Below are positions 1 through 33,676 of a DNA stretch of 43,599 nt, piece by piece. Source of the DNA: a virus. The position numbers and the translations under genes are program-made. The stretch spans positions 1-43,599 of IMG/VR virus record IMGVR_UViG_3300033141_001722. The stretch is one strand, 5' to 3'. The stretch's first letter is position 1. The number at the start of each line of letters is the position of its first letter. The notes under the pieces were generated by a model that saw only the letters and a list, made by a program, of their open reading frames with translations, was not told the origin of the DNA and searched no databases.

Positions 1-22
1 ATGAAAGCTTTCCGATCCCGAT

Positions 23-52
23 CCGAAGCCGCCCCCGTCCGGGCGGCTTCGG
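23..52 (+). terminator. Perfect 12-bp hairpin at the left end
   Basis: CCGAAGCCGCCC (23..34) pairs perfectly with GGGCGGCTTCGG (41..52) around a 6-nt loop. Only a weak T run (GTTTG) follows, so it is terminator-like rather than a textbook terminator. The same 12-mer as its 5' arm occurs at 43535..43546 near the right end. Confidence 0.6.
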
Positions 53-148
53 TGCGTTTGGGCTTGGGTGGGTCTGCATCCTTGGAAACCGTCAGACCTT
101 GACCCCCCCGCCCTACCAAGGCTAAGTAGGGCAGGGAGGTGAGGGCCT

Positions 149-238
149 ATGGCGCGTGCTGAACCATGCCCATGGGACCAAGCAAGGCTATCGATGGTTG
201 GATCTATGGCTATCGATGGTCGTCGATGGAAGACCTAA
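149..238 (+). CDS. Possible 29-aa small protein
   Basis: An ATG at 149 follows a GGGAGG ribosome binding site (134..139) at a workable distance and opens a 29-codon frame ending in TAA at 236..238, just before the next gene at 257. The frame contains the two GGCTATCGATGGT repeats, so it could equally be a chance reading of a repeated regulatory site. I do not recognise the peptide. It starts MARAEPCPWD and has no membrane or metal-binding signature. Confidence 0.25.
   Translation: MARAEPCPWDQARLSMVGSMAIDGRRWKT
186..230 (+). repeat. ATCGATGGT direct repeats upstream of first gene
   Basis: GGCTATCGATGGT occurs at 186..198 and 208..220, 22 bp apart. The second copy extends to ATCGATGGTCGTCGATG, nearly identical to the pair at 3201..3247. 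Their position just upstream of two separate small genes suggests a protein-binding site. Confidence 0.55.
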
Positions 239-256
239 TCAATGGAGGTTCTACAA

Positions 257-514
257 ATGTCTGAAGGGCGAAAACCAGAGCAGCAGAACGGAAAGTCCAG
301 ACTAAGCAAGATAAAATTCAATCTGGACAGCGTGTTCAATATCCGAGGCAAGCACAACCACTACGTCAAAGTCTCTCTCGTCGTCGAGGATCGAACCCTT
401 GACATGATGGAAGTATGGCAAGAGATGTACCTGCTTCCACACGACCGAGCAGACGCAGCCGTGCACTACGAAAGAATTTTGACGTCCATGGATGCAGCCT
501 ACATAGAAGATTAG
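257..514 (+). CDS. Hypothetical small protein (85 aa)
   Basis: No family is recognised. The ATG at 257 is preferred over the one at 242 because GGAGG (244..248) sits 8 nt upstream of it. The N-terminus is polar (MSEGRKPEQQ). The rest alternates basic and hydrophobic residues with an acidic C-terminus ending in IED, and no membrane segment is visible. Codon use is CGN and ATC leaning, resembling the well-expressed capsid gene more than the replication genes. It is the first clear gene of the + arm, and a G-run/C-run hairpin follows its stop. Confidence 0.6.
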   Translation: MSEGRKPEQQNGKSRLSKIKFNLDSVFNIRGKHNHYVKVSLVVEDRTLDMMEVWQEMYLLPHDRADAAVHYERILTSMDAAYIED

Positions 515-529
515 GCAGCCGGTAATGAT

Positions 530-551
530 GGGGGGGTTGAAAGGCCCCCCC
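530..551 (+). terminator. G7/C7 hairpin after first gene
   Basis: Seven G (530..536) can pair with seven C (545..551) around an 8-nt loop, with partial outer pairing of AGGCAGCCGG against CCGGTGCCT. No T run follows. It may terminate or process the upstream transcript. Confidence 0.5.
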
Positions 552-599
552 GGTGCCTCTTCCCAAAAATCTAAGCCACCATGGCTAAGAGTTTTGAGA

Positions 600-652
600 A
601 GGTGTACCGGAAGATTTAGACGGGTACACCTGACAAATTAAAGGAGGTGTAC
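600..652 (+). promoter_or_regulatory. Mutually exclusive hairpins masking a ribosome binding site
   Basis: AGGTGTACC (600..608) pairs with GGTACACCT (623..631). The same central strand (GTACACCT, 624..631) is also fully complementary to AGGTGTAC (645..652), which overlaps the AGGAGG ribosome binding site of the short frame at 653. The two pairings cannot coexist, which is the layout of an RNA switch or a translational attenuator. Confidence 0.4.
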
Positions 653-700
653 ATGAAAAACGTTAATGGCCATACACACGTGGCATCGATGGCGGCCTGA
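653..700 (+). CDS. 15-aa leader-like peptide
   Basis: AAAGGAGG precedes the ATG at 653 with ideal spacing. The frame encodes MKNVNGHTHVASMAA and stops at 700. Its ribosome binding site lies in the alternative hairpin at 600..652, so it may be a regulatory leader for the gene at 743 rather than a functional protein. Its coding status cannot be settled from sequence alone. Confidence 0.35.
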   Translation: MKNVNGHTHVASMAA

Positions 701-742
701 TGGTAGAGGCCAAAATGAATCGGCAAGCGAAAGGAGACCAAG

Positions 743-1087
743 ATGGGAACCAAAGAGATTGAAGTTAATACCAAAAACGAAGGCAAGCACATGGTCAGCA
801 TATGGACCATAGCAAGAAATGTCGATGAGGAAGCTCTGGCCTCCATATTTAAAACATGGATAAACGTCATGGGAAGGGACTACAATTCAGGTGTAAAATT
901 CGGCAAGCATCTGCGGAAACTACATCGAACCCTGCAGCGCTCCATGATTTGCTTTTTGATTGGAGCCATTGCAGGAATCTCGGATCAAGAACGCGTCGAT
1001 GCCAGAAATGAGACCGCTATAGCCACAGCCAAAAAGATTCGGGATATGTATGAAAATCTGGAACTCCCCATGGGGCCCTTTATATAA
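743..1087 (+). CDS. Hypothetical protein (114 aa)
   Basis: No family is recognised. AAAGGAG lies about 7 nt before the ATG at 743. The first half looks like a soluble alpha/beta protein. A central hydrophobic run (SMICFLIGAIAGI, about residues 73 to 85) could be a buried helix or a short membrane segment. The C-terminal third is helical and charged (ERVDARNETAIATAKKIRDM). It is followed by the 11-bp repeat promoter at 1100..1165, so it probably closes the first early transcription unit. Confidence 0.6.
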   Translation: MGTKEIEVNTKNEGKHMVSIWTIARNVDEEALASIFKTWINVMGRDYNSGVKFGKHLRKLHRTLQRSMICFLIGAIAGISDQERVDARNETAIATAKKIRDMYENLELPMGPFI

Positions 1088-1099
1088 ATCCCACCCCTA

Positions 1100-1165
1100 C
1101 GTCAGCGGGTTGTCAGGCGACTGTCAGCCCCCTGTCGTGGGGGACCAAGCAGGATGTGTTACAAT
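1100..1165 (+). promoter_or_regulatory. Promoter with four 11-bp-phased GTCA boxes
   Basis: GTCAG or GTCGT boxes start at 1101, 1112, 1123 and 1134, exactly one helical turn apart. A -10-like TACAAT starts at 1160 (26 bp after the last box), with no recognisable -35. The same geometry recurs at 43439..43504. Phased direct repeats replacing a -35 are typical of activator-dependent promoters such as those bound by OmpR/PhoB-type or SARP-type proteins. Confidence 0.6.
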
Positions 1166-1253
1166 GGGAGTGTAGGAAAATCAGTGAGAGGAGAATTTCA
1201 ATAGAATATAGGATAGAAATTTCACTAGTACGCGAAGGAACGGAAGGAGCGAC

Positions 1254-1304
1254 ATGCAACGAATGTCGGGACCAACAAATCTTGACAGAAGGACGTCCTT
1301 GTGA
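1254..1304 (+). CDS. 16-aa leader-like peptide
   Basis: GGAAGGAG precedes an ATG at 1254 that opens a 16-codon frame (MQRMSGPTNLDRRTSL) ending inside the next promoter at 1282..1310. The right-end frame at 43569 begins similarly (AAGGAG then ATGCA) and also lies downstream of a GTCA-box promoter. This may be a leader peptide; evidence is limited to the ribosome binding site and the shared context. Confidence 0.3.
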   Translation: MQRMSGPTNLDRRTSL

Positions 1305-1310
1305 TATAAT
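1282..1310 (+). promoter_or_regulatory. Consensus sigma-70 promoter with operator-like dyad
   Basis: A perfect TTGACA (1282..1287), 17-bp spacer and TATAAT (1305..1310) with extended -10 TGA. The spacer contains the perfect palindrome AAGGACGTCCTT (1289..1300), whose core GGACGTCC recurs in the promoter at 3647. It drives the gene at 1391. Confidence 0.9.
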
Positions 1311-1390
1311 GGAGACGTGGAATGACGCCAGCCCAGCCCCCTGGGCGATCGAATGGGGGCAAAACTCTCAGGAAGGAAAAGGAGATAACG

Positions 1391-1762
1391 ATGGCTACGA
1401 AGAAGGTTACTCGTCGTAAGGCAGCCCCCAAACCTGCCCCAAAGAAATCAAAACCCGCTACAAAGAAATCGAAGCCTGCCGCCAGCAAGAAGGCTTCCGC
1501 TGGGCGTAAACCGAAGCGCTATACCGAAAGCGCCCTTCTGGATAAATACCCTTACATCGTCGCCCGTACCCTCAGATTTGAGGAGGAAGGCAAATGGAAG
1601 GGCAAGCAGACGGTGGAGATCCGCTGTCAAGAGCCTGGATGCAAAGCCCGACGCCGGGTGGCAACATCGGATCTGTTTCAGGTCAGAATGTGCGAAGAGC
1701 ACGTTCTGTCCAACCGTCGAGCCCGCCGCCGGAAGGCAAGCAAGGAGCCCATCGCCCCATAG
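1391..1762 (+). CDS. Basic DNA-binding-like protein with Cys/His zinc site, paralogue A (123 aa)
   Basis: The N-terminal 45 residues are a Lys/Ala/Pro tail resembling histone H1 or bacterial HU tails (KKSKP repeats), suggesting nucleic-acid binding. A compact domain follows with C-x4-C and a later C-x2-H (CQEPGC, then MCEEH), a likely zinc site, and an Arg-rich C-terminus. The same domain, including DKYP, FQV and CEEH, is found in 4096..4416, so the two are paralogues. The ATG at 1391 has AAGGAG 5 to 10 nt upstream; longer starts would lie inside the promoter leader. Codon use (CGN, ATC) and the perfect promoter suggest high early expression. A role in transcription control or nucleoid take-over is inference. 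Confidence 0.75.
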   Translation: MATKKVTRRKAAPKPAPKKSKPATKKSKPAASKKASAGRKPKRYTESALLDKYPYIVARTLRFEEEGKWKGKQTVEIRCQEPGCKARRRVATSDLFQVRMCEEHVLSNRRARRRKASKEPIAP

Positions 1763-1774
1763 ATGCCCGTTCAA

Positions 1775-1857
1775 TCCCGGCAGCTTCCCAATCGTTATGA
1801 GGCTGCCGGGAATCGGTCTCACGCCCCCTGATCGTAGACCGGGGGGCGTGAGACCGA
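1775..1857 (+). terminator. Two consecutive strong hairpins
   Basis: TCCCGGCAGC (1775..1784) pairs with GCTGCCGGGA (1802..1811). Directly after it, a 16-bp perfect stem forms between 1813..1828 and 1842..1857 with a 13-nt loop. No T tract follows. They lie between genes 1391..1762 and 1892..2065 and may terminate partially, stabilise the upstream mRNA or serve as processing sites. Confidence 0.6.
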
Positions 1858-1891
1858 GAATCCGCTCGGTAAATGAAACAGGAGGAATCCA

Positions 1892-2065
1892 ATGGCAACA
1901 CGTGAAGAGATGGACAGAGCCGCAGAAGAAGCCCGTAAGGAATTTGAGAAGATCGTGGGAGATGCAAAAGCCACCGCCCAGGATCTAATCACTTTCCATC
2001 AGAAGTGGTACCTCAGAGCTGGGCACAAGCGCCTAGGTCAGATGTACCGATCGGTTGGGCGCTAG
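1892..2065 (+). CDS. Small helical protein (57 aa)
   Basis: An excellent ribosome binding site (CAGGAGGAATCC) precedes the ATG at 1892. The product begins MATREEMDRA and is predicted almost wholly alpha-helical, with an acidic heptad-like first half and a basic end (HKRLGQMYRSVGR), so it could form a coiled coil or a small DNA-binding helix bundle. Codon use matches gene 1391..1762, supporting a real, well-expressed gene. Function is not recognised. Its stop codon lies inside the palindrome at 2057..2070. Confidence 0.65.
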   Translation: MATREEMDRAAEEARKEFEKIVGDAKATAQDLITFHQKWYLRAGHKRLGQMYRSVGR

Positions 2066-2103
2066 CGCCCACATCTTGGTCGGGGGCGGAGAAATCCGCC
2101 CCC
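2057..2103 (+). terminator. Palindrome plus GAAA-capped hairpin
   Basis: GGGCGCTAGCGCCC (2057..2070) is a perfect 14-bp palindrome overlapping the previous stop codon. Then GGGGGCGGA (2082..2090) pairs with TCCGCCCCC (2095..2103) around a stable GAAA tetraloop. It ends just before the ribosome binding site of the gene at 2122, so it may affect that gene's translation as well as read-through. Confidence 0.55.
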
Positions 2104-2121
2104 ATCCTAAGGAGGAACCCC

Positions 2122-2973
2122 ATGAAGATTAAGTACAAGGAGCCCATAGATCTCAAATGGGTAGGGCAAGACCCACCGTACAATGCGGCCCGAGCTATAT
2201 CAAGAATATACCACCGGCCTATAAAATTTCGGGACAAATCCGGATTTGAGATGGTCGCATTTCCGATAGATGATCCATACACAGCCGTTGTATCCGCGGA
2301 TGCTTGGGATGAATGCGGCCCAGATGCTTACGATCCGGATCAAAACCACATGGAATCCAAACCCCGTCTTTTTGGTAGCGTCTCGCACGGTACCTTACGA
2401 GATGAGGACTTGATACCGATATTTATGTACTTGCTTGAAGAACACGACCCCGAGGAGGCGGCCAGGATAACCGCAAGATACTTGGAGACGGGCTGGCCAC
2501 ACTACCGGAGCAAACTCGCGTGGGGAGACCCATTTGATAACAAACAGAAAGAGATGGCCCCACATCTGTTTGGAGATTTGTATGAAGCGCTGTCCGATCT
2601 AGCCTCACCCGGTTATTACTTCGGTGCACACCCCGGAGATGGGGCTGACTTCGGGTTCTGGCTTATAAGCCCGGAAGATTGTGAATTGTCGTGTTTCCTG
2701 CAGCTGCCTACATCAGATTGGTTGGGTAGAGCTGATGAAATGGAAATAAAAGCCGGTGCGGATGTCCTGGCAGAACATATAGAGGATGTAATAACTGAAT
2801 GGGAAGACAGCGCCCACGAGTCCATCTGCAGATGGGTCGAACAGGAGTATGGTATATCCAAGCCCATTAACAGAGATGACGAAGAAGCTATGGAAATCTG
2901 GGAAGATGCCTACGAGAAAATCCTTAATAAAATCAGGAACCTTGTGGCTACACAGCTGGGATTTAAGGAGTAA
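2122..2973 (+). CDS. Hypothetical acidic protein (283 aa)
   Basis: No family is recognised. The ATG at 2122 is chosen because AAGGAGGAACCCC precedes it; upstream in-frame codons run through the hairpins. The protein is soluble, acidic and rich in Trp and Tyr, with no signal peptide or membrane segment. Features include a run of Asp/Glu near the C-terminus (NRDDEEAMEIWEDAYEKI) and a Gly-rich middle (GAHPGDGADFGFW). Acidic, aromatic-rich early phage proteins are sometimes host-take-over factors or DNA mimics, but nothing here proves that. It ends the unit driven from 1282. Confidence 0.65.
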   Translation: MKIKYKEPIDLKWVGQDPPYNAARAISRIYHRPIKFRDKSGFEMVAFPIDDPYTAVVSADAWDECGPDAYDPDQNHMESKPRLFGSVSHGTLRDEDLIPIFMYLLEEHDPEEAARITARYLETGWPHYRSKLAWGDPFDNKQKEMAPHLFGDLYEALSDLASPGYYFGAHPGDGADFGFWLISPEDCELSCFLQLPTSDWLGRADEMEIKAGADVLAEHIEDVITEWEDSAHESICRWVEQEYGISKPINRDDEEAMEIWEDAYEKILNKIRNLVATQLGFKE

Positions 2974-2977
2974 ATTA

Positions 2978-3028
2978 ATGGTACATAAACCAGCACACGA
3001 GAAAGAAGCCAAAATATGGAACCGATAG
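2978..3028 (+). CDS. 16-aa peptide frame
   Basis: The 3' end of the preceding gene supplies AAGGAG (2965..2970) seven bases before an ATG at 2978, opening a frame for MVHKPAHEKEAKIWNR. A minigene of this size may be translated but has no assignable role. Confidence 0.2.
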   Translation: MVHKPAHEKEAKIWNR

Positions 3029-3048
3029 GCCGAAATCCATTAAACTGG

Positions 3049-3136
3049 CCCCCGGAGATGTCCGGGGGTCAACCATGTTAATCAATCACAAATTTTCATA
3101 CTCGGGGAGCATGATCTTAATGTGCCTACCCCGAGT
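3049..3136 (+). terminator. Two hairpins in a 290-bp non-coding stretch
   Basis: CCCCCGGA (3049..3056) pairs with TCCGGGGG (3061..3068) around GATG, a compact terminator-like hairpin. ACTCGGGG (3100..3107) pairs with CCCCGAGT (3129..3136) around a longer loop. Apart from the 3201..3247 repeats I see nothing else in 3029..3260. Confidence 0.5.
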
Positions 3137-3200
3137 TGGTGGGGCAGGGAAGCATAGACATAAACTAATAGATGGGGCAATGGATTAACGTCTACGGAAG

Positions 3201-3247
3201 TTAATCAATGGTCGTCGATGTGAAAATTAATCGATGGTCGTGGATGT
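3201..3247 (+). repeat. Two imperfect 21-bp repeats
   Basis: Two 21-bp copies starting at 3201 and 3227 differ at two positions (consensus TTAATCRATGGTCGTSGATG plus T). They lie directly before the gene at 3261 and match the motif at 211..230. Possible operator or small iteron. Confidence 0.55.
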
Positions 3248-3260
3248 AGGAGATAGGCGG

Positions 3261-3557
3261 ATGAGCGACAAGAATCCAGGTGAGCAAGTATGGATGATAT
3301 CCCCAGTATTAACCGCCATTAAGAAGGCTGTGGAGAACGCGGCAGAGACGGAAAGGGAATACGTGAAAGTATCCGGTACAGCTTGCGTGGAGGGGGTAGA
3401 AACCTGGATCGAATTAAGCAACAGGCTGATTAGCGTTAAGGAGGAGCTGCTAAGGGTATATGGAATGTTTGACTTGCTTCTAATGGTAGTGGATGTGGCC
3501 ACGAAAAGCAATATGGAACCCAAAGTGCAAGTGCCCAGAGACAAAGAGGGGCAGTAA
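3261..3557 (+). CDS. Hypothetical protein (98 aa)
   Basis: No family is recognised. The ATG at 3261 has AGGAGA about 7 nt upstream; the in-frame codon at 3234 falls inside the repeated motif and is not used here. The sequence is mostly helical with a hydrophobic C-terminal helix (YGMFDLLLMVVDVA, about residues 67 to 80) and a charged tail (VPRDKEGQ). The helix is short for a membrane anchor. Confidence 0.55.
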   Translation: MSDKNPGEQVWMISPVLTAIKKAVENAAETEREYVKVSGTACVEGVETWIELSNRLISVKEELLRVYGMFDLLLMVVDVATKSNMEPKVQVPRDKEGQ

Positions 3558-3646
3558 TCGCCGATATAGTTATAAATCTGGCATCATGTACATATGAAAT
3601 TACAAAATCTATACTTTTATGTGGGCGAGATTCGTCCAAGTGTATC

Positions 3647-3676
3647 TTGACACCAGGGACGTCCCTGTGTTATAAT
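3647..3676 (+). promoter_or_regulatory. Sigma-70 promoter with GGACGTCC dyad
   Basis: TTGACA (3647..3652), 18-bp spacer, TATAAT (3671..3676) with extended -10 TGT. The spacer holds the perfect palindrome AGGGACGTCCCT (3655..3666), sharing its core with the 1282 promoter, which suggests one common repressor. Confidence 0.9.
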
Positions 3677-3691
3677 GGAGTGGGTGGCGGT

Positions 3692-3928
3692 ATGTACACT
3701 GTCCATACATATGGTGCCAAGCTAATATGTAGGGGAAAGCTCAGGCCAGACATTAGATACCCAGACAAATATCTTAGGGCGCTATGCAACAGCCAGCACC
3801 CCAGCTGGACCTTTGCAACATGGCACAGAGACGGATCAGCGCTTAACAGAAGCGGGATAGTGTGGAGATGGACGATAGGTCCGGGGACAGTTGACAGATG
3901 TATAGGAGGAACCCATGGCAAGCAATAG
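3692..3928 (+). CDS. Possible small basic protein (78 aa)
   Basis: The frame starts with ATG at 3692, only 15 nt after the -10 box, preceded by GGAG at a long spacing, so its leader would be very short. The product is Trp- and Arg-rich (RSGIVWRWTIG) without a recognised domain. It overlaps the start of the better supported gene at 3915 by 14 nt. It may be real or may be the leader of the operon. Confidence 0.35.
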   Translation: MYTVHTYGAKLICRGKLRPDIRYPDKYLRALCNSQHPSWTFATWHRDGSALNRSGIVWRWTIGPGTVDRCIGGTHGKQ

Positions 3929-4178
3929 AGCTGGATGGATGTCCTATCAGAGAGCTATGGCCAGAGCCCGACTGGTGGACGCAAAACTGGATACGCTAAT
4001 TAACGAAATATGTATTTTGGCGTATGCCGTAGATTCTTTACTAGCTGTATCCCAGCAAATCAAAGGAGACATGCAACTAGTATTAGGGAGGAACGATGAA
4101 AAAAATAAACCCGGTTACGGAGAAAATGAGGAAGATGTTTCCTCGCAAGACAATGACCGCGAAAGAGTTGAAGGATAA
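3915..4178 (+). CDS. Hypothetical protein (87 aa)
   Basis: ATAGGAGGAACCC precedes the ATG at 3915, the same initiation cassette used at 2122 and 6401. The first 55 residues form amphipathic helices (ARARLVDAKLDTLINEICIL); the C-terminal 30 are polar and disordered (GYGENEEDVSSQDNDRE). The 3' end overlaps the next gene by 83 nt, which is unusual and may mean translational coupling. Function not recognised. Confidence 0.55.
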   Translation: MASNRAGWMSYQRAMARARLVDAKLDTLINEICILAYAVDSLLAVSQQIKGDMQLVLGRNDEKNKPGYGENEEDVSSQDNDRERVEG

Positions 4179-4416
4179 GTATCCATGGGTGGTGGGTAAA
4201 ATAGAGGGGGAAGGGAACGACAGAACGGTTCTAATCAAGTGCACTAAGAGGGGATGTACCAATACCCGTCGCACCCGTACCATGGACGTGTTCCAGGTGA
4301 AATTATGTGAGGAGCACCAGATGGAACGGAACGCCGAGATGCTACGCATTAGGCGTAAGAGATGGCGAGAGCGAGACCGGCAGCGGCGAAAAGCAATGCG
4401 CGAGGGTGAGCCGTGA
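4096..4416 (+). CDS. Cys/His zinc-site basic protein, paralogue B (106 aa)
   Basis: It shares with 1391..1762 the block DKYP-x-V, C-x4-C (CTKRGC), RR-x2-T-x-D-x-FQV, CEEH and an Arg-rich C-terminal helix (RKRWRERDRQRRKAMRE). It lacks the long Lys/Pro tail. The four Cys/His ligands suggest a zinc knuckle and the terminal basic helix suggests nucleic-acid binding. GGGAGGA precedes the start. Both paralogues lie downstream of a promoter with a GGACGTCC palindrome, so autoregulation of these promoters by this family is an attractive but untested idea. Codon use is closer to the phage average than that of paralogue A. Confidence 0.7.
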   Translation: MKKINPVTEKMRKMFPRKTMTAKELKDKYPWVVGKIEGEGNDRTVLIKCTKRGCTNTRRTRTMDVFQVKLCEEHQMERNAEMLRIRRKRWRERDRQRRKAMREGEP

Positions 4417-4751
4417 ACAGGCGCTCATTCATTAAATCGCTAGTAACCCTTGTAGGAGGCATTATGTTACCTATACCAGGGTCTGCTGTAGCGCCAGCAT
4501 GCGATCCCATATCCTCTGTGCCCAATATACCTACTGGGTCATATTTGATTGACAATGCTGTAGCTGATGTAAACCCTGGGGGGTATTTGGTTCCATATAA
4601 GTTTGTAAAAAGAATTCTTAATGTAGTGGAGGGGTCAGCAGATGAGGAACAGTCGAAATCTAATACGTCTAACGTTTTCTATTTTGTTGTCGATGATCTT
4701 GTGCCTGACGGTGCCAGCGCTAATCACATTGGGGATAATCTCGGCGTCTAG
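4413..4751 (+). CDS. Exported protein with twin-arginine-like signal (112 aa)
   Basis: A GTG start at 4413 overlaps the previous stop (GTGA) and has GAGGGTGAG just upstream. The N-terminus reads MNRRSFIKSLVTLVGGIMLP then SAVA, matching the Tat motif (R-R-x-F-x-K), a moderately hydrophobic segment and an A-x-A cleavage site near residue 27. The mature part (about 85 residues) is soluble and not recognised. A secreted or periplasmic phage protein could act in superinfection exclusion or lysis timing, which is inference. The 3' third overlaps the next frame. Confidence 0.5.
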   Translation: MNRRSFIKSLVTLVGGIMLPIPGSAVAPACDPISSVPNIPTGSYLIDNAVADVNPGGYLVPYKFVKRILNVVEGSADEEQSKSNTSNVFYFVVDDLVPDGASANHIGDNLGV

Positions 4752-4851
4752 GGGAAGCTTGGGACAAGCGGTTTTGGCCGGGATCCTTACGGCATGGATC
4801 GTATCAATGGGTCTGATTACGCTGAAAAAAGTGCTGTCGAGACTTATTTGA
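4642..4851 (+). CDS. Small two-helix membrane protein (69 aa)
   Basis: GGAGGGGTC precedes the ATG at 4642. Two hydrophobic segments (LTFSILLSMILCLTVPALIT and LAGILTAWIVSMGLITL) flank a short polar loop (SRGSLGQ), and both termini are basic. The size and topology fit a holin-like or inner-membrane exclusion protein. It overlaps 4413..4751 by 110 nt in another frame. Two nested export-related frames are unusual; one may be spurious. It is remote from the endolysin, which weakens a holin reading. Confidence 0.45.
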   Translation: MRNSRNLIRLTFSILLSMILCLTVPALITLGIISASRGSLGQAVLAGILTAWIVSMGLITLKKVLSRLI

Positions 4852-4865
4852 GAGGGATAAGGGAT

Positions 4866-5095
4866 GCGTAACACCGTAACGATCCGTAACAGCCCCCGGA
4901 ATAGGGGTGCCGGGGACACAGTACGGGGGGTCGGCCCCTATTCCACGGGACGTTACGGGATGTTACAATTATAATATTAATATATTTATAGAAGACTCGT
5001 AGGGGGGATACCCATCGGGACCGTTCCGTGGTTCCGGGGCGTAACAGCGTGGAGGGCGGCGATTGTTACGGACTGTTACACTGTTACGGGAACAG
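4866..5095. repeat. Iteron/AT-rich region A, candidate origin or control region
   Basis: About nine GTAAC/GTTAC motifs in both orientations (typical forms CCGTAACA and TGTTACGG) fill 230 bp. An AT-rich tract (4965..4992) lies among them. GGAATAGGGG (4898..4907) and CCCCTATTCC (4935..4944) form a stem, and GGAATAGGGG is repeated in the right-hand region (42894..42903). This combination resembles iteron origins with an unwinding element; it also forms the leader of the radical SAM gene. Confidence 0.6.
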
Positions 5096-5104
5096 GAGAT
5101 CAAA

Positions 5105-6046
5105 ATGGAGATAGCAAAGGATCCTAATGTTTCAATTGTTTTGCCTGGGTGTAACGCTAATTGCGCTTTCTGTTTTATTAACTACAACAAGGCTGTAGTG
5201 GCCGCGGGGTGGTTGGAGCAGCTTGAGAGGAATCTGAACGCGTTACCAAAGGACTTCTGGCAGATAAGTATAACGGGGGGCGAGCCGCTAATAAGTAAAC
5301 ATCTAGTGAACGTGTTGAACGTTATCGATAGATCTAGATGGAAAAAGGTAGTGCTAACCACTAATGCCTTATCACTTGACGAAGAGGTTGCAGGCCGCCT
5401 TAGGGGCAAAGTGGATCATGTAAATATAAGCCGATATTCGTCAAGCAACTCTGTTAATGTAAATGTGTTCGGGGTATATCTAATGCCTACGGATGCCCAA
5501 TTACGTAGATATATATCAATATTGAACATACATGGCATAGATGTAACGTTTAATTGTGTACTACGTCCGTGTGGTTTAGACGAATACGGACGTGCAGGTG
5601 GAGTATATAGATATATAGCATGGGCAAGAGGGTTGGGGGCTCAGGCGGTTTCATTTCGGAAGCAACAAACGGATGGGGGGGATCTGGAACCCACCGCAGA
5701 AGAGAAGGCATTTACACATCACAAAGTAATAAACGAAACGCGCTGCCCCGTATGTAGATCCAAAACCCAGCTAATTAATGGAATGAAGGTAATATGGAAG
5801 GCTGCCTTACATCACCGGGACACAGTTTTGCCAGATAAAGTGCATGAATTAATATGGCAACCATCCGGAGAGTTTACGTTGGACTGGGGCGGCAAATTTC
5901 CTTTAATGAAAGCTTTGCTAAGAGATAATGATATAAGATTGCGACTGGATCTAGGGGTGACGAAAGGAAGCCCGGTTGATGGCGTCACTATTAAGGGCAG
6001 GCCGCATTCCCCTAGAGAAATAATCGTATGGGAATGGCCCATCTAG
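5105..6046 (+). CDS. Radical SAM enzyme (313 aa)
   Basis: The cysteine motif C-x3-C-x2-C (C16, C20, C23 in GCNANCAFCF) binds the 4Fe-4S cluster that cleaves S-adenosylmethionine, and GGEP at 58..61 matches the family's SAM-contacting motif. A further C-x2-C (C214, C217) might hold a second cluster or zinc. AACAGGAGATCAAA precedes the ATG at 5105; a longer TTG start at 5063 lies within the iterons and is disfavoured. The substrate is unknown. It is not clearly QueE, because no other 7-deazaguanine genes are seen. It stands alone between the iteron region and the replication operon, so a role in nucleotide or DNA modification is possible but unproven. Confidence 0.8.
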   Translation: MEIAKDPNVSIVLPGCNANCAFCFINYNKAVVAAGWLEQLERNLNALPKDFWQISITGGEPLISKHLVNVLNVIDRSRWKKVVLTTNALSLDEEVAGRLRGKVDHVNISRYSSSNSVNVNVFGVYLMPTDAQLRRYISILNIHGIDVTFNCVLRPCGLDEYGRAGGVYRYIAWARGLGAQAVSFRKQQTDGGDLEPTAEEKAFTHHKVINETRCPVCRSKTQLINGMKVIWKAALHHRDTVLPDKVHELIWQPSGEFTLDWGGKFPLMKALLRDNDIRLRLDLGVTKGSPVDGVTIKGRPHSPREIIVWEWPI

Positions 6047-6079
6047 TAGCTGCGGACGCTAGAGGCAATAAAATGTATC

Positions 6080-6109
6080 TTGACAGGACATGGCGATGTG
6101 TGGTATAAT
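6080..6109 (+). promoter_or_regulatory. Sigma-70 promoter of the replication operon
   Basis: TTGACA (6080..6085), 18-bp spacer, TATAAT (6104..6109), extended -10 TGG. The preceding TGTATC is identical to that of the 3647 promoter. The spacer lacks the GGACGTCC palindrome but has ACAT-N4-ATGT. It probably drives genes from 6199 to 18321. Confidence 0.85.
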
Positions 6110-6117
6110 AGACATGT

Positions 6118-6137
6118 AGGGACCGACCGTGGTCCCT
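6118..6137 (+). promoter_or_regulatory. Leader hairpin just after the transcription start
   Basis: AGGGACC (6118..6124) pairs with GGTCCCT (6131..6137) around a 6-nt loop, about 10 nt after the -10 box. It could be an operator at the DNA level or a 5' stabilising hairpin in the mRNA. Confidence 0.5.
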
Positions 6138-6198
6138 GGTGGAGTCCACATTTCAGTTGCATTCGGTAAGACAAAGGATGACATGGCAGGCTATCAAG

Positions 6199-6429
6199 AT
6201 GAGAACATTTAGGTGCCCAAGATGTTTAAACCATAACTTGAAACACTTCCGGAGGGGGAGCCTTACCAACGACAGCCATTTTTTGCCGAAGGGGAATAGG
6301 GGCAAGAAGAGGGCCACAAAGGTTCCCGTTCGGTGTTTATATTGTGGCTATAGATGGCGTTCGGTGTCATCGGCTCTGGAGCTTATACAGGAGGAACCCC
6401 ATGGCGAGGAAGAAAAAGCCAACCCCTAA
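6199..6429 (+). CDS. Zinc-ribbon protein (76 aa)
   Basis: Two C-x2-C pairs, CPRC near residue 6 and CLYC about 40 residues later, form a classic zinc ribbon, followed by GYRWRS. Between them is a basic loop (RGSLTNDSHFLPKGNRGKKR). ATG at 6199 is preferred because GGCAGG precedes it and the ribbon then starts at the N-terminus; a GTG at 6139 is possible. Such ribbons occur in transcription factors and rRNA or tRNA-binding proteins. As the first gene behind the 6080 promoter it may be a regulator. It overlaps the next gene by 29 nt. Confidence 0.6.
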   Translation: MRTFRCPRCLNHNLKHFRRGSLTNDSHFLPKGNRGKKRATKVPVRCLYCGYRWRSVSSALELIQEEPHGEEEKANP

Positions 6430-6910
6430 AACCCAGGCATGTACCGTATGTGGGTATCCAAGAAAATTTATACGTATGCGGGAAAGGATTGGCAAGGATG
6501 ATAGGGTCGCCAGATGGCCCGAATACGAGAAGTGCCCCAATAAAAACGATCCAAGCAAGCACCCAACAGCCAAAAACGAATCTTATTTATTAGATGAAGA
6601 GCTACGCAAGGACCCCCGGCTGCGCAAATCAGTAAATAAAGCGGTGGAACATAAAGAAATGCCGGTAGGTAGGTTATTACAAGTACAAAATAAGGCCGAT
6701 CCTCTGGATGAGATATCGGACTGCCTGTTATGGTACGAGGATAACATCGGGGGTCTACCTATAGCTATAGGCGTAAACAGAGAGGAGGCCGGAGATTATA
6801 CATCTATTGAATGGGAATTAGAGGATGGCTCTACCGTGACAATACCAGTATGGCACGCCAAACTAGCCGTGGGATACGGGTACATATATCTCATACAGGA
6901 GGTATCGTGA
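6401..6910 (+). CDS. Hypothetical protein with N-terminal C-x2-C (169 aa)
   Basis: The start at 6401 is set by CAGGAGGAACCCC. The N-terminal 55 residues are basic and contain CTVCGYPRK and a later Cys (EKCPNK), a possible zinc knuckle. The C-terminal half is acidic with beta-type patterning (YTSIEWELEDGSTVTIPVWH). I do not recognise the family. Its place immediately before the nuclease/ATPase/SSB genes suggests an accessory role in DNA processing. Confidence 0.6.
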   Translation: MARKKKPTPKTQACTVCGYPRKFIRMRERIGKDDRVARWPEYEKCPNKNDPSKHPTAKNESYLLDEELRKDPRLRKSVNKAVEHKEMPVGRLLQVQNKADPLDEISDCLLWYEDNIGGLPIAIGVNREEAGDYTSIEWELEDGSTVTIPVWHAKLAVGYGYIYLIQEVS

Positions 6911-6932
6911 AGATAAGACTGGGGAGGTTAAT

Positions 6933-7895
6933 GTGACCACAGTAAAGAAATCGATGTCTATATCGTGGTCACGTCTGAGAGAATGGATGACATGCCACTG
7001 GAGGTACCAGTTGAATTATGAGCTGGGGTGGACGCCGAGGAAGGTGGCCGAACCACTATATTACGGAACGATTTTCCATAGCATAATGGATTACATTTAT
7101 TCGGAGGTGCGTAAGCCAAATCCTGGATATAAACGTCGGAATAGAAAGGCTCTCCGAGCCAAGCTCAGGAGGGAGGGAATGAGGGGGGAGGACCTGGAGC
7201 AAATGCTGGATTGGGTGTTGAGATATATAGCCCATATTGAGAGGTACAAAGAACAGGAGCCGAGATCCGTCATTGCATCGGAGTTTGCGTTTAAGATCCC
7301 ATTGGATATATCTCTAATGGATGAGATAGGCCCCCCCTGGTATTCTTTTAGTGACACATACAGCGACATTTTCTTCGTTGGTATAATGGATCTGATAGTA
7401 GCCCGCCGAAAAACCATAGAGATTTGGGACCACAAGCTACAGGCTAATCACCCGCGCAGGAATGAGTTGGATCATCCCACCATTTCATATCCCCAGATGG
7501 GTATATATGCATGGGCATCTAGGGAATTGGGTTTTCCTGTAGAGCGGTCGGTGCTAAACGTTTTTGGCAAGAGACGAAAGTCAGATAACATTCAGAGATA
7601 CCCAATAAAAGTTACGGACGAGGAGGCCGAGCAATGGAGGAGATGGGTACATTCCAAGGCAGCTGAGATGTTAAGTAATCCGGATCGCAGTAAATCCTTA
7701 GGGTCTATGTATTGCGGTTTCTGTAACTATAAATACCCGTGCATCAAGCACCAGACTGAGGGTGAGAGTGGGTTGACCAGGGCGTTAAACGCGGACTACG
7801 AATCCAAAAGCACTTCATACAGGTCCAAGATAAAATGGCATGAATCGTTTACACCTGACCAAGTAGTTAGAATGGATAAGGAGGTCAACCAATGA
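6933..7895 (+). CDS. Cas4/RecB-like PD-(D/E)XK nuclease with FeS cysteines (320 aa)
   Basis: The nuclease core reads D153 (IMDLI), then D166-x-K168 (EIWDHK), the metal- and catalysis-related acid/lysine set of RecB/Cas4 nucleases. An N-terminal cysteine (C21) and three C-terminal ones (C261, C264, C270 in CGFCNYKYPC) match the split 4Fe-4S ligand pattern of Cas4, AddB and phage relatives. The GTG start at 6933 follows GGGGAGG. Phage members act as 5'-3' exonucleases in recombination or replication. The following genes are a Sak4-like ATPase and an SSB, which fits a recombination module. No cas1 or cas2 is present, so a CRISPR role is unlikely. Confidence 0.85.
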   Translation: MTTVKKSMSISWSRLREWMTCHWRYQLNYELGWTPRKVAEPLYYGTIFHSIMDYIYSEVRKPNPGYKRRNRKALRAKLRREGMRGEDLEQMLDWVLRYIAHIERYKEQEPRSVIASEFAFKIPLDISLMDEIGPPWYSFSDTYSDIFFVGIMDLIVARRKTIEIWDHKLQANHPRRNELDHPTISYPQMGIYAWASRELGFPVERSVLNVFGKRRKSDNIQRYPIKVTDEEAEQWRRWVHSKAAEMLSNPDRSKSLGSMYCGFCNYKYPCIKHQTEGESGLTRALNADYESKSTSYRSKIKWHESFTPDQVVRMDKEVNQ

Positions 7896-8662
7896 AACAA
7901 GGCCAGCCAAAACCTAAAGGATTTCATTGCATGGTTTATGGCACCCCCGGTTCGGGGAAGACAACTATTGCAAGCCAAATGCCTAGGCCTGTTGCCATCC
8001 TGGATGTTGAAGGTGGCTCGGGGTGGCTTTATCACGAATTGGATCAGGTCGATATTTACACAATCAGCCCAGAGGAAGACCCATCAAAGGAAATATCCGC
8101 GTTCTTGAAGGCGGCTACCACGGGTAGAGGCAACCCGTCCAAATATCGTAGTATAGCAATAGATACAGTATCTGCTCTCAGGAGTAGGCACTTGCAGGCT
8201 CTTACCGGAGACAGCCTGCACATAGAATTAGGCGACTATGGCATCGCTACCAACTGGCTTAGGCGTCAGTTATCTATGACGCAATTCGCGCCCCAAATGA
8301 TTATGTGGATTACACATATGAAGGAGGACAGGGATGGACCCCGCATTGTGTACAGGCCTGCTGGGATGAGCGACACTGGGCTTAATGCCTGCGAGGAGTT
8401 GCTAGATGCGATTGTTTTTATGGGAAAAACCACGGACAGAGGAGGTGAAATAACTAGATTTCTATGTACGGAGGAGATAGACCCCTTACAGGGACGCATA
8501 GGCATTATGGCCAAGGATAGGACAGGTTTTCTGCCTGGTTTTTTGGAATTAGATGAGATGGGGGAGGACGGGGTACCCCCAAATATGTTTATGCCGTTCT
8601 TCGGAGAAATTGTAAAGGAGCTAGGATATCATAAGGCTCCAAGAAAGACAACCAAGAAATAG
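7892..8662 (+). CDS. Sak4-like RecA-family ATPase (256 aa)
   Basis: A Walker A motif (GTPGSGKTT, residues 17 to 25) and a Walker B strand ending in Asp (YRSIAIDTV, D91) define a RecA-core ATPase of the AAA_24/Sak4 type common in phages. Such proteins anneal or load onto single-stranded DNA together with an SSB. It overlaps the preceding stop by 4 nt (ATGA) and is followed at 8674 by an SSB-like gene, the usual neighbour. The length matches the family. The C-terminal tail is Lys-rich (HKAPRKTTKK). Confidence 0.85.
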   Translation: MKQGQPKPKGFHCMVYGTPGSGKTTIASQMPRPVAILDVEGGSGWLYHELDQVDIYTISPEEDPSKEISAFLKAATTGRGNPSKYRSIAIDTVSALRSRHLQALTGDSLHIELGDYGIATNWLRRQLSMTQFAPQMIMWITHMKEDRDGPRIVYRPAGMSDTGLNACEELLDAIVFMGKTTDRGGEITRFLCTEEIDPLQGRIGIMAKDRTGFLPGFLELDEMGEDGVPPNMFMPFFGEIVKELGYHKAPRKTTKK

Positions 8663-8673
8663 GAGGAGAGGTC

Positions 8674-9192
8674 ATGGCATCAAAGAAGCAAGAAGAATAC
8701 TACATCGATGATGAGGGTAATGTAAAGGTAAAATACAAAGGCTCATCATTCGAGCCGGTACCCGCCGGGGAATATGATATGATTATTCAGGATGTGGAAG
8801 TACGTACCGGGAAGGAGTCAGGGAACCCATATTTCCATATTGAATTCAGGATCAGTGACGCCGATCCTAGCCTGGATAACAAAGTGGTGTGGGAGAACAT
8901 ATCCCCGGTTGCCCAATGGCGGGTGACCCAGTTAGTGGAGGCAGTATACGGTAAATTTGATGACGTCGAGGAAGACGACGAAATCGAATTCAACGTATTT
9001 GATCTGTTCGGGGCTAAGATCCGGGCCAGAGTTGGTTTGGAGGAGATCGAACAAGGCAGCAGGAAGGGGGAGATGACCAACACGATAACCCGGTTTATCG
9101 CCGCAGATAGTGAGCCCCAACCGGAGCCAAAGAAGAAGGCCCCAGCAAAGAAAAAGACCACAACCCGTCGGAGAGCATCTACCAAGAAATAG
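8674..9192 (+). CDS. DUF669-like single-stranded-DNA-binding protein (172 aa)
   Basis: The central section (FEPVPAGEYDMIIQDVEVRT, then NPYFHIEFRIS) is typical of the phage DUF669 family, OB-fold proteins thought to coat single-stranded DNA beside Sak-type recombinases. AGGAGGAGAGGTC precedes the start. The C-terminus is unusual: a run of about 25 mostly Lys, Arg, Pro and Ala residues replaces the acidic tail typical of bacterial SSB. The tail resembles that of the 1391 protein, which may mean a second DNA-contact surface. Confidence 0.8.
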   Translation: MASKKQEEYYIDDEGNVKVKYKGSSFEPVPAGEYDMIIQDVEVRTGKESGNPYFHIEFRISDADPSLDNKVVWENISPVAQWRVTQLVEAVYGKFDDVEEDDEIEFNVFDLFGAKIRARVGLEEIEQGSRKGEMTNTITRFIAADSEPQPEPKKKAPAKKKTTTRRRASTKK

Positions 9193-9200
9193 CGTTAGTG

Positions 9201-9335
9201 ATGGGGCAGATAGTGGGCGGTAATATGGAAACAGGACAATCCTGCACAAAGAATGAAGATTACCCCCAATGCCGGGTGGGTTCGGACTGGAAGGGGTTCC
9301 TCCGCCTGCCCGGCATTTTGCCAGGGTCAAAATAG
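9201..9335 (+). CDS. Possible 44-aa protein
   Basis: An open frame from ATG 9201 (or 9225) encodes a short polar peptide ending LPGILPGSK. No ribosome binding site is seen and the frame spans a strong hairpin at 9269..9317, so it is doubtful. It is listed because 9193..9373 otherwise has no gene. Confidence 0.2.
   Translation: MGQIVGGNMETGQSCTKNEDYPQCRVGSDWKGFLRLPGILPGSK
9269..9319 (+). terminator. Terminator-like hairpin inside the replication operon
   Basis: AATGCCGGG (9269..9277) pairs with CCCGGCATT (9309..9317) and TT follows, giving TTTT with the arm. The loop contains a GG/CC pair that can extend the stem. It may attenuate transcription between the recombination genes and the primase-polymerase genes. 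Confidence 0.5.
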
Positions 9336-9373
9336 TGGTTCCATCGTCGGTACGCATTTGGGAGGATAGACTT

Positions 9374-9589
9374 ATGGATAACGAATGTGGCAGACCATCT
9401 ATCGGATTCCTAGTGGAGCCCCAAAGAAAGCCCATACCAATGTGTAAGTTCCACCTGGATAAGGCAGTGGGAATGTATATAATGATGGGATTTGGGGCTA
9501 CGGTGGTATATGTGGATACCAATGCTGTATGTGAGAGCTTGGACCCACACCCGGACGGAGACATTACCATGGAAAGAGACCAGGAATGA
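9374..9589 (+). CDS. Small Cys/His protein (71 aa)
   Basis: GGAGGATAGACTT precedes the ATG at 9374; an upstream in-frame ATG at 9269 lies inside the hairpin. Residues include C5 and a later C-x2-H (PMCKFH), which might coordinate zinc, then a short hydrophobic helix (AVGMYIMMGFGATVVYV). Function is not recognised. It is coupled to the next gene by an ATGA overlap, implying a shared role near the primase. Confidence 0.5.
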   Translation: MDNECGRPSIGFLVEPQRKPIPMCKFHLDKAVGMYIMMGFGATVVYVDTNAVCESLDPHPDGDITMERDQE

Positions 9590-9807
9590 AACTTGTAATG
9601 CAACCAGTCAACGTTAATGATAAGGCGGTAACGATCCAGTTATTTGTGGAGTCGTCTACCCGTCATAGGGCATTTATTGGAATTATGTCTTTTACACGAG
9701 CTGAATTTATTTCGTTTAGGGATGTGCTGGTTAGGGGCACAGCATCCAAGAAAACGGATACGGAGCTTATTGTGCATCCATTACTACATGCTCTAGAGAA
9801 ATCATGA
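9586..9807 (+). CDS. Hypothetical protein (73 aa)
   Basis: It starts in an ATGA overlap with the preceding stop and ends in an ATGA overlap with the primase-helicase. The product is a compact alpha/beta protein (MKLVMQPVNVNDKAVTIQLF, then FTRAEFISFRDVLVRG) without metal ligands or membrane segments. No family is recognised. Tight coupling on both sides argues that it is real. Confidence 0.55.
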   Translation: MKLVMQPVNVNDKAVTIQLFVESSTRHRAFIGIMSFTRAEFISFRDVLVRGTASKKTDTELIVHPLLHALEKS

Positions 9808-12443
9808 AGTATTCTGAATTATTTATAGGTAGACCCGGATACCATGCTCTAGCCTACAAAAAGGGTAGGGGATATAGACCCATAAAACGGCCACTGTCCC
9901 CCCTAATCATTCGGAAACATTTGGTGGGGGATATAGTGGCGGGTTTGTATCTTATAAGGCCAAAGGATAATGGAGTACGTCTGGTGGCTTTTGATATAGA
10001 CCAAGACGATCCTTCCTTATCAAAGACCATCGCCCGCAACGCCGTTATAGATGTACCGGATACATCGGTGCTTATAGAACGGACGGGGGGCAGAGGATGG
10101 CATGTATGGATATTTTTCGATGACTGGATAGAAGCCAGGCTAGCACGTGCTTTTATGCGATCAATACTGGAAGGCATAGAATTATCCTACCCGGTGGAAT
10201 TGTACCCAAAACAGGACCGCATACGGGCAGAAGGTTTAGGTAATTTGGTCAGATTACCTTTAGGAGTACATCAGAGAACCGGAAACACTGGCGTATTACA
10301 CAATGCATTTGGTTTACCATTTGAAATAGATGGGAATGAAGAAGATCCGGATTTACCAATAGAACCTGCCCCGCATGGTTTGGTAAGGCGAGTGGCCGAA
10401 ATGCGCTTGGAAGCGGAGAAGGCTGTAATGCCGGTGGTAGATGATGGGGGGCCTGCCACGCTAGCTTGTATAAGCCATTTTAGAAAGGGAGTGAAGGAGG
10501 GGGCCAGAGATGAGGCTATGTTTAGATTAGCCGCATATCTACACAGGCAGCAGATTCCAAAGGATGCGGCTTGGTTAGTATTAGCGAAAGCCAACGAAGG
10601 CAATAAACCCCCACTAACGGATACGGAGCTAAATGTAAAGCTGAATAGCGCCTTCTCCGGAGCAGGATATGGCCTGCCGTGTTCGAGTGATCTTGTGGGG
10701 CTGGACTCCGAATTCTGTAACCCATCATGCCCAGTGTACAGTACTGCTAAGGCACGGGCCGGGGGAGCGGCAGTGGGCAGGCTGCCTGATGCCGCTGGAT
10801 CTAAATTTCCTAGGCTGGTGGAACGGGACCATTCGTATATATATCAATCTATAAATAAAAGTGGAATATTGGAAAAATCTATATCCAACTTCGTTATGGA
10901 GGTATTATCTAGACTAGAGATGCCTGGGGATGATGTGGATGTACTTAGGGTCAGGGCCATAGCGCAAACTGGCAGGGAGGATATAATGGACGTGCCAGTT
11001 AGCGCGTTCTCAAGCAAGGCTATGTTGCTGCGGAAGCTAACCAGGGCTGAGTATGCTTGGTACGGTAGTGATGTACACTGTCAATATCTAAAATCACATC
11101 TTACTTCCATCGATCTGGAGACCCAAATAGCTGTAACCAGGGTTGGGCGGTATACTACCGAGGAGGGAATAGACATATGGGTTACACCAAAAGGAGTTGT
11201 AACCCCAAACGGCGTAGAAACGGAAGGTACAGGATACACATATCACAGGCCAGAACATTTTGGTATTATTCACATTCGTACGCCGGAGAAGAGTTTCTCA
11301 AAGGATCGTGCAAAAAAGGCCGCACGAGATTTATGGAATCTAAACACAGCAGGGGTTATGACTCCCGTAATTGGATGGAGCTTTGCCGTCCCATTTAAGC
11401 CGTTTTTTATGGAGCGGCTTGGGCATTTCCCTTTACTGATGTTATATGGCACAAGGGGGGCCGGGAAGACCCAATTAATACAGCGGACGGTGATGCCTCT
11501 TTTTGGGTATTCAGCAAGGGAGCCGCAAATCTTTTTCTGTGACACCACTCGCTTTGTGATGGTCTCTTATGGAGCATCATCAGCTACTGTGCCCTTGTTT
11601 TATGATGAATACAGGCCAAATGCTTTGCCTAGCACTAAGCTTAGACAGATATGGGACCACTGGCGACATTTGTATGCAGAGGACACCGACCACAGAGGGC
11701 AATCGGATTTATCTCGGTTGTCATTTAAGCAAACAGCCCCCATTATTATAGCCGGGGAAGAGATGGTGATGGACCCGGCCATGCAGGAGCGTATAGTGCA
11801 AGTCGGAATGTCTCCTGATAACCTAACTAGGGACAGGCAGAAAGCATTTCGAAGTATGCCCCCCATGGAGCTGGCCAGCCTAGAATTCATAAAGCACTCA
11901 TTAAGCATAAACCCGGTACCGATACTAGATGCGGCCAGGGAAAGAATATCTGGACAATGGGAGCAGCTTGTTTCCCCTAGGGTATACGATAACATGCTGG
12001 TGGTATCCTTCGGATTGGGGGTGTGGTCAAAATTTACGGGTAGGAAAGTAACTAAGGAGATGACCAATCACATATTTGACGTGTCCCAAATGGTTATAGA
12101 CGATGAGGGAGGCGTGCGCACGGCTCTGTGGGTTGATGATTTCATACTAGATGTAGCTGGAATAGTAGAAGAGAAGGGGCCATTCACTTGGGGTGTGGTA
12201 GAGAGGGATGGGGATAATAGTATGTTGTACATCAACCTACGGAGGGCTCATGCCGAATGGGCAAAAGATATGCGAGCCAGAGGGGACCATGCAGTAGGCA
12301 TTCAACCAATAAAAAGGCAATTGTCGGAAGAGGCCGCAGCCCGGTTTGTAGTAAAAAAGGGCATGCAGAAACGCATGATGGGAGCCAATACCAGGGTATA
12401 TGCTATAGACTTAACAGCCATGAGGGATGTTATAGATGAATAG
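9804..12443 (+). CDS. Primase-helicase with AEP/TOTE-like primase domain (879 aa)
   Basis: The N-terminal domain carries the archaeo-eukaryotic primase signature: D64-x-D66 (VAFDIDQDD) for metal binding, SGG-like TGGRGWH with H100, and GNLVRLPLGVHQRTG near 146 to 160, as in TOTE and PrimPol-type enzymes. A DUF927-like middle region leads to a Walker A (YGTRGAGKTQ, near residue 547), an acidic Walker B (FYDEY, near 598) and a downstream arginine-containing sensor (PAMQERIVQ), giving a superfamily 3-like helicase or translocase. The protein should prime and unwind at the fork beside the family A polymerase that follows. It overlaps the previous gene by 4 nt. Z-genome cyanophage S-2L is also reported to use a PrimPol-type primase-polymerase. 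Confidence 0.8.
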   Translation: MKYSELFIGRPGYHALAYKKGRGYRPIKRPLSPLIIRKHLVGDIVAGLYLIRPKDNGVRLVAFDIDQDDPSLSKTIARNAVIDVPDTSVLIERTGGRGWHVWIFFDDWIEARLARAFMRSILEGIELSYPVELYPKQDRIRAEGLGNLVRLPLGVHQRTGNTGVLHNAFGLPFEIDGNEEDPDLPIEPAPHGLVRRVAEMRLEAEKAVMPVVDDGGPATLACISHFRKGVKEGARDEAMFRLAAYLHRQQIPKDAAWLVLAKANEGNKPPLTDTELNVKLNSAFSGAGYGLPCSSDLVGLDSEFCNPSCPVYSTAKARAGGAAVGRLPDAAGSKFPRLVERDHSYIYQSINKSGILEKSISNFVMEVLSRLEMPGDDVDVLRVRAIAQTGREDIMDVPVSAFSSKAMLLRKLTRAEYAWYGSDVHCQYLKSHLTSIDLETQIAVTRVGRYTTEEGIDIWVTPKGVVTPNGVETEGTGYTYHRPEHFGIIHIRTPEKSFSKDRAKKAARDLWNLNTAGVMTPVIGWSFAVPFKPFFMERLGHFPLLMLYGTRGAGKTQLIQRTVMPLFGYSAREPQIFFCDTTRFVMVSYGASSATVPLFYDEYRPNALPSTKLRQIWDHWRHLYAEDTDHRGQSDLSRLSFKQTAPIIIAGEEMVMDPAMQERIVQVGMSPDNLTRDRQKAFRSMPPMELASLEFIKHSLSINPVPILDAARERISGQWEQLVSPRVYDNMLVVSFGLGVWSKFTGRKVTKEMTNHIFDVSQMVIDDEGGVRTALWVDDFILDVAGIVEEKGPFTWGVVERDGDNSMLYINLRRAHAEWAKDMRARGDHAVGIQPIKRQLSEEAAARFVVKKGMQKRMMGANTRVYAIDLTAMRDVIDE

Positions 12444-12499
12444 CAATAGGCATTTGCGTGTGTTCACTGGAGCAGCAATGTACAGGAGGTACACAGAGC

Positions 12500-14290: not shown

Positions 14291-14328
14291 TGAATAGGAT
14301 AGGGCTATCCAGAGTAAATAGGATGGAG

Positions 14329-14568
14329 ATGACTCTTATAATCAACTACAGAGGGGTATTTGATAATCCAACAGTAGACGCCTTTTGTAAGCTACTAGAC
14401 ATGGAGGTGGAGGATTTTATCTGGGAGATTAGTGATAGCACGGCGGGCAAAATACGGGATACAGTATTAGAAAGGATTACCAATGGCACTCGGAAACCTA
14501 ACAATAGTGTACGGGGGTCAGTACGGGTCAGAAGGAAAGGGACAGATCGTAGCATATCTGTCAAGTAG
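14329..14568 (+). CDS. Small protein overlapping purZ (79 aa)
   Basis: A frame from ATG 14329 (preceded by AGGATGGAG) runs 86 nt into the purZ reading frame. It encodes an acidic helical first half (AFCKLLDMEVEDFIWEI) and a basic tail (RGSVRVRRKG). An alternative ATG at 14281 overlaps the polymerase stop. The frame is plausible because it fills the gap between polymerase and purZ, but the long overlap makes the tail suspect. Function not recognised. Confidence 0.4.
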   Translation: MTLIINYRGVFDNPTVDAFCKLLDMEVEDFIWEISDSTAGKIRDTVLERITNGTRKPNNSVRGSVRVRRKGTDRSISVK

Positions 14569-15583: not shown

Positions 15584-15595
15584 GAGGAGATGGCA

Positions 15596-15946: not shown

Positions 15947-15947
15947 C

Positions 15948-16927: not shown

Positions 16928-16935
16928 GAGAAGTT

Positions 16936-18321: not shown

Positions 18322-18337
18322 CATATAGTATAATGTA

Positions 18338-33664: not shown

Positions 33665-33676
33665 CGTTTCCTCCTA

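Follow-up and report, generated by a model that had tools for sequence, protein, structure and literature searches.

The uncultivated virus record IMGVR_UViG_3300033141_001722, a linear IMG/VR record of 43,599 nt that is taken here in full (the window), carries two promoters that match those of the bacterial phage-shock gene pspA. We estimate at roughly two in three the probability that both sites are activator-dependent σA promoters of rightward phage genes that imitate the pspA promoter of the host, the activator being most likely a host protein, linked to PspA, that joins an ATPase to a winged helix. The two sites have identical box geometry, and in bacteria such an array is linked both to the gene of this candidate regulator and to pspA. 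We infer that the ATPase-winged-helix protein binds the boxes and activates transcription, and that the signal is membrane perturbation.

Results

Two array promoters in the phage genome

The window derives from a tailed phage in which the terminase, portal, major head and tape-measure genes lie on the minus strand, and the genes for an exonuclease, Sak4, a primase, a family A polymerase and a PurZ-like protein on the plus strand. The family A polymerase gene adjoins the PurZ-like (2-aminoadenylosuccinate synthetase) gene at 12458–15583, which suggests a phage genome with 2-aminoadenine (Z). Next, at 15948–16484, comes a nucleoside deoxyribosyltransferase-like gene. A megablast search of annotated phage collections returned no close relatives of the phage. 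One viral contig, L013, is 99.9% identical to window positions 32836–43587 and is too alike for informative footprinting. The features on which the analysis turns are as follows.

1101–1137, + strand: array 1, four boxes of the form GTC(A/G), one every 11 bp, GTCAGCGGGTT GTCAGGCGACT GTCAGCCCCCT GTCGTGG; 0 by chance
1157–1165, + strand: promoter 1, extended −10 TGTTACAAT at 26 bp from the fourth box, the offset of the host pspA promoters
1282–1310, + strand: second promoter, predicted from sequence, TTGACA-N17-TATAAT with the palindromic spacer AAGGACGTCCTT, between array promoter 1 and the gene at 1391
1391–1762, + strand: first clear gene downstream of array 1, 123 aa, lysine/arginine-rich, with a C..C..C motif
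43440–43476, + strand: array 2, four boxes, all GTCA, one every 11 bp, GTCAGCGGAAC GTCAGCGGAGC GTCAGCTCCAT GTCAAGC; 0 by chance
43496–43504, + strand: promoter 2, extended −10 TGGTACAAT, again at 26 bp from the fourth box
43557–43599, + strand: predicted ribosome-binding site AAGGAG (43557–43562) and ATG (43569) of an ORF that leaves the end of the record, downstream of promoter 2

The boxes of array 1 start at 1101, 1112 and 1123 (GTCA) and at 1134 (GTCG), and those of array 2 at 43440, 43451, 43462 and 43473 (all GTCA), so that every step is exactly 11 bp; the last box of array 2, GTCAAGC, has the form of the proximal box of the host promoters described below. The first-pass annotation of this DNA had reported four GTCA boxes at 11-bp steps at both places, and this geometry stands, with the corrections that its coordinates were off by one base and that the fourth box of array 1 reads GTCG. 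Its placing of TACAAT 26 bp past the last box (1160–1165 and 43499–43504) is borne out at both sites when counted from start to start, and the flanking bases differ as it had stated, the spacers of array 1 being unlike those of array 2. It had overlooked that both −10 elements are extended (TGnTACAATGGGnG at 1157 and 43496). Because the −10 is extended, no −35 would be needed at either promoter, and transcription is predicted to start near 1172 and near 43511.

The comparison with shuffled sequence proposed in the same annotation came out far in favour of the arrays. No four-box array occurred in 400 Markov-simulated windows, and three-box arrays arose at a rate of 0.0025 per window. When three GTC boxes were combined with TAnnnT and one mismatch was allowed, the only matches in the window were the two array sites, against 0.12 expected. 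Spacings between GTCA pairs on the + strand of the window peak at 11 bp (5 pairs) and 22 bp (3 pairs), all other spacings being found at most twice.

The promoter at 1282–1310 is probably a tandem promoter under separate control. The protein encoded at 1391–1762 had no Pfam or PHROG match. It shares the motif YPxxV...CxxxxC...DxFQVxxCEEH with the product of 4096–4416; both are small basic proteins and apparently paralogues, and each gene is preceded by a TTGACA-N17-TATAAT promoter with a spacer that is perfectly palindromic around GGACGTCC, a palindrome that is possibly an operator. At the other end of the record, the ORF served by promoter 2 would read into the left end if the genome circularises. 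Dense GTAAC/GTTAC repeats occupy positions 42740–43090, between the terminase genes and array 2, and are possibly a replication origin or a packaging site.

One could envision that the arrays themselves are iterons of a replication origin and that the −10-like sequences are incidental. There is some precedent among viral contigs, four of which (L006, L011, L012 and L017) carry GTCA repeated every 11 bp and then TTAGAT-rich runs, and these may be origins. However, no AT-rich unwinding run follows either phage array, and both copies have an exact extended −10 at offset 26, as at the host pspA promoters. We consider an origin very improbable.

The same promoter type precedes pspA in Chloroflexota

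A scan of bacteria and phage for such arrays, which the first-pass annotation had recommended, located the pattern chiefly in Chloroflexota. The pattern derived from the phage, with TGnTA(C/T)nAT as the −10, was found at 13 loci in 84,980 species genomes: nine in Chloroflexota (mostly Anaerolineae), two in related Bacillota and two in Bacteroidales, one of these last two being a near-perfect tandem repeat. In the Bacillota (L061 and L070) the three-box promoter pattern stands ahead of clustered genes, one of which is of the penicillin-binding transglycosylase-like kind. The Chloroflexota matches lie mostly directly upstream of a gene of the PspA/IM30 family (PF04012, E = 3e-14), a family connected with membrane stress. 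A simpler pattern applied to 298 Anaerolineae genomes gave 30 matches in 24 genomes, versus none for the reversed control.

In all nine loci that were checked, the gene upstream of pspA encodes an ATPase joined to a Trans_reg_C domain (E = 1e-14 to 1e-19). The product, of about 455 residues, begins with an AAA/STAND-type ATPase (P-loop SNxGKSxLLR, FDEFD) and carries a winged helix of the PhoB/OmpR type at its C-terminus. This winged helix is most similar to OmpR-family response regulators and matches the solved RegX3, WalR, MtrA and PhoB domains; a sequence search with the ATPase part gave no PDB match. The gene is commonly just upstream of pspA and codirectional with it. In some lineages (L110, L113, L115 and L122) the two are separated by a receiver-histidine-kinase gene together with a gene for a very large sensor.

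As a guard against circularity, 60 further neighbourhoods were picked by the protein alone, not by DNA, and the 500 bp after the gene were examined. Of the 256 tetramers, TGTC ranked first and GTCA second in recurrence at an 11-bp step, and spacings between GTCA pairs peaked at 11 bp (8 loci) and 22 bp (23 loci), with no more than 5 loci at any other spacing. Three GTC boxes at 11-bp steps were present in 29 of the 60 neighbourhoods, versus 0.09 expected from shuffles. A −10-like TAnnnT was located at offset 26 in 18 of these 29 loci and at offset 25 in 4, and TGn preceded it in 14 of those 22; the offsets come from a search with the boxes only, a combined score being uninformative in that the boxes dominated it. 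The proximal box of the host promoters is usually GTCAAGC, GTCATGC or GTCGTG.

The promoter also follows the regulator across genomes. A host-type pattern was found in 22 of 80 genomes that carry the ATPase-winged-helix protein versus 3 of 80 without it (p = 4e-5). Seventeen of the newly found host promoters had a clear ORF downstream, and in 16 of these the ORF encodes PspA. Outside the psp locus there was no significant excess (5 of 80 genomes with the regulator versus 3 of 80 without), and a wider regulon was dropped as proof of the regulator. Because the host genomes are related, and the loci are not independent events, all of these host counts are to be read as strong rather than as exact probabilities.

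Step, −10 offset, extended −10 and form of the proximal box all agree between the phage sites and the host promoters. We define the psp-type promoter by three GTC boxes at 11 bp, of which the phage arrays have four each; by a −10 at 25–26 bp after the proximal GTC, a distance that is 26 bp in both phage arrays; and by a proximal box GTC(A/G)(A/T)G(C), to which GTCAAGC and GTCGTGG of the phage conform. The host arrays differ in having mostly three boxes, of which the second is degenerate (GTCGG/GTCCG), whereas the phage arrays have four, nearly all GTCAG.

Which protein reads the arrays

The proposal of the first-pass annotation that a dedicated activator binds in tandem, in the manner of PhoB/OmpR proteins, is well supported, in that the bacterial arrays adjoin the gene of a protein with a winged helix of this type at its C-terminus. 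The annotation had left it open whether the activator belongs to the host or to the phage. A search of all six frames of the window gave no winged-helix or regulator match, and the activator should therefore come from the host. Its mention of SARP proteins finds no support: the candidate regulator carries Trans_reg_C at the C-terminus, behind the ATPase and with OmpR-family response regulators as best match, not an N-terminal SARP winged helix.

If the activator were nevertheless encoded by the phage, the arrays might be compared with the targets of late-gene activators in phages of Gram-positive bacteria, such as Alt of TP901-1. In the TP901-1 late promoter the ALT boxes are four direct repeats upstream of a −10 that lacks a good −35, and the late-gene activator is phage-encoded. 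The arrays described here likewise comprise four direct repeats and a −10 without a good −35, there are two copies in one genome, and several small rightward proteins are without annotation. Against this, the TP901-1 activator serves late genes, whereas the arrays here face rightward genes of the left end, opposite in strand to the structural genes; bacterial chromosomes carry the same boxes; and the window yielded no activator gene. We regard a phage-encoded activator as quite improbable.

The first-pass annotation had raised the possibility of a host phosphate regulator, through which the phage would sense the phosphate status of the host; on this reading the arrays would be Pho boxes of the host PhoB. 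The E. coli Pho box is read through GTCA by a winged helix of the PhoB family, and at phoA the last GTCA starts 15 bp before the −10. The phage arrays share with the Pho box the GTCA core, the head-to-tail repeats at 11 bp and, in the candidate regulator, the winged-helix family, and host PhoB is used by cyanophages (see Discussion). However, the distance from the last box to the −10 is 26 bp here, the arrays control pspA in Anaerolineae, and of the 29 regions upstream of pstS taken from these genomes, none had a three-GTC array. The commonest tetramers at 11-bp steps before pstS were TTAA and TAAC, words that recur every 11 bp in these regions (L184–L213) and are perhaps the Pho box of Anaerolineae. 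Given that no pstS region had the array, phosphate is an unlikely signal for a phage with a host of this group; phosphate control was rejected, and we give the PhoB reading hardly any credence.

Alternatively, a different OmpR-family response regulator of the host might bind the arrays, the pspA promoter being one member of its regulon. These bacteria have 8–32 proteins with OmpR-type winged helices per genome, such winged helices of the PhoB family are able to read GTCA, as at the E. coli Pho box, and the 3 of 80 genomes that have the pattern without the ATPase-winged-helix protein have it before genes other than pspA. Set against this, the neighbours of the array are mostly the ATPase-winged-helix gene and pspA, the latter being the predominant target. 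We think that such a regulator is unlikely, and we favour the ATPase-winged-helix protein as the activator.

The promoter type in other viral contigs, and the host

The pattern of three boxes and an extended −10 was found in 27 stretches among 2.9 million viral contigs, versus 2 for a reversed box word. The 27 include members of unrelated classes, such as a marine podovirus-like group; those that resemble the window are L051, L009, L018 and L038. The promoter of L051 reads GTCAGGCGGGT GTCAGGCCCGT GTCAAGCACGA N12 TGTTATAAT, and the stretch compared matches the window only in PolA (28% identity) and dUTPase (34%). Judged by sequence, L051 is an unrelated phage with the promoter type of the window arrays. 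When a proximal box GTCA(A/G/T)GC was required, L051 and L013 alone remained among the viral contigs.

Another contig, L040, has a pair of array promoters (4414–4467 and 5247–5300) of the same geometry, with upper boxes of the GTCATAA type and GTCAAG as the proximal box. In the marine podovirus-like contigs (L035, L037, L041–L044, L048 and L052–L057), four GTC(A) boxes start 15, 26, 37 and 48 bp before TAGACT, the 15-bp distance being the one at E. coli phoA. Downstream of these arrays come early genes of small size and an ssDNA-binding/primase module.

A search of 396 Anaerolineae genomes with window positions 1–20000 for CRISPR spacers or prophage gave no DNA match. Relatives of the phage TerL were detected by tblastn in 5 of 298 Anaerolineae genomes, at about 36–40% identity, no closer than the TerL of other phages. 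It is from the promoter type alone that we infer the host, which would be a member of the Chloroflexota, Anaerolineae-like.

Discussion

The use of a host regulator by a phage has been described for phosphate: cyanophage genes (pstS of P-SSM2 and genes of S-PM2d) are under the control of host PhoB through Pho boxes (PMC10976474). As proposed here, phage promoters are read in that system by a winged-helix regulator of the host that binds tandem boxes. The cyanophage system differs in its phosphate signal, in its boxes (PyTTAAPyPyT/A) and in its regulator, a two-component response regulator, whereas here the box is GTCA and the linked gene is pspA. In the open-licence literature we came across neither a natural phage promoter controlled by psp nor the use by a phage of the membrane-stress (phage-shock) regulon.

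The psp response of E. coli is induced by infection with filamentous phage, and PspA keeps the ATPase activator PspF inactive until the membrane is stressed (PMC11720261). In E. coli (PMC11237479, PMC11720261) as in Chloroflexota, the gene for an activator (in Chloroflexota a candidate one) that combines an ATPase with a DNA-binding domain lies beside pspA. PspF is an NtrC-type AAA+ protein with a Fis-type HTH that acts at σ54 promoters, and its gene is divergent from pspA. The Chloroflexota protein, in contrast, joins a PhoB-type winged helix to an AAA/STAND ATPase, its gene is codirectional and upstream, the promoter is a σA promoter with an extended −10, and the phage has the promoter too. 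The comparison invites the idea that the ATPase-winged-helix protein is the counterpart of PspF in a Chloroflexota psp regulon, and by the same analogy it would probably be silent until the membrane is perturbed.

We propose the following mechanism. Monomers of the host activator would bind the GTCA boxes in a head-to-tail row, all on the same side of the DNA. Because the lowest box ends near −35, the activator could substitute for the missing −35 element by contacting region 4 of σ, and thereby help RNA polymerase with σA to use the extended −10 TGnTACAAT. The targets would be the leftmost, probably early, rightward genes of the phage. Phage entry or membrane stress might then raise their transcription: the disturbance of the membrane at DNA entry would turn on the PspA-linked ATPase-winged-helix activator, which in turn would turn on the phage genes.

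The analysis thus suggests that a membrane alarm of the host switches on phage genes. In its full form this reading has two parts, that a lytic phage has placed its leftmost, probably early, operons under the phage-shock alarm of its host by way of a PspA-linked activator, and that the psp regulon of Chloroflexota answers to an ATPase-winged-helix protein, not described before, that activates σA promoters. We offer the two together tentatively, as somewhat short of an even chance. The findings point to a binding site for pspA control and a likely regulator in Chloroflexota, and in the main texts of the phylogenomic PSP surveys PMC11237479 and PMC9239133 we found neither the ATPase-winged-helix gene nor its binding site described. 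The promoter type also offers a lead to the host of this uncultivated phage. If the proposal is true, then the damage response of the host would serve the phage as its start signal.
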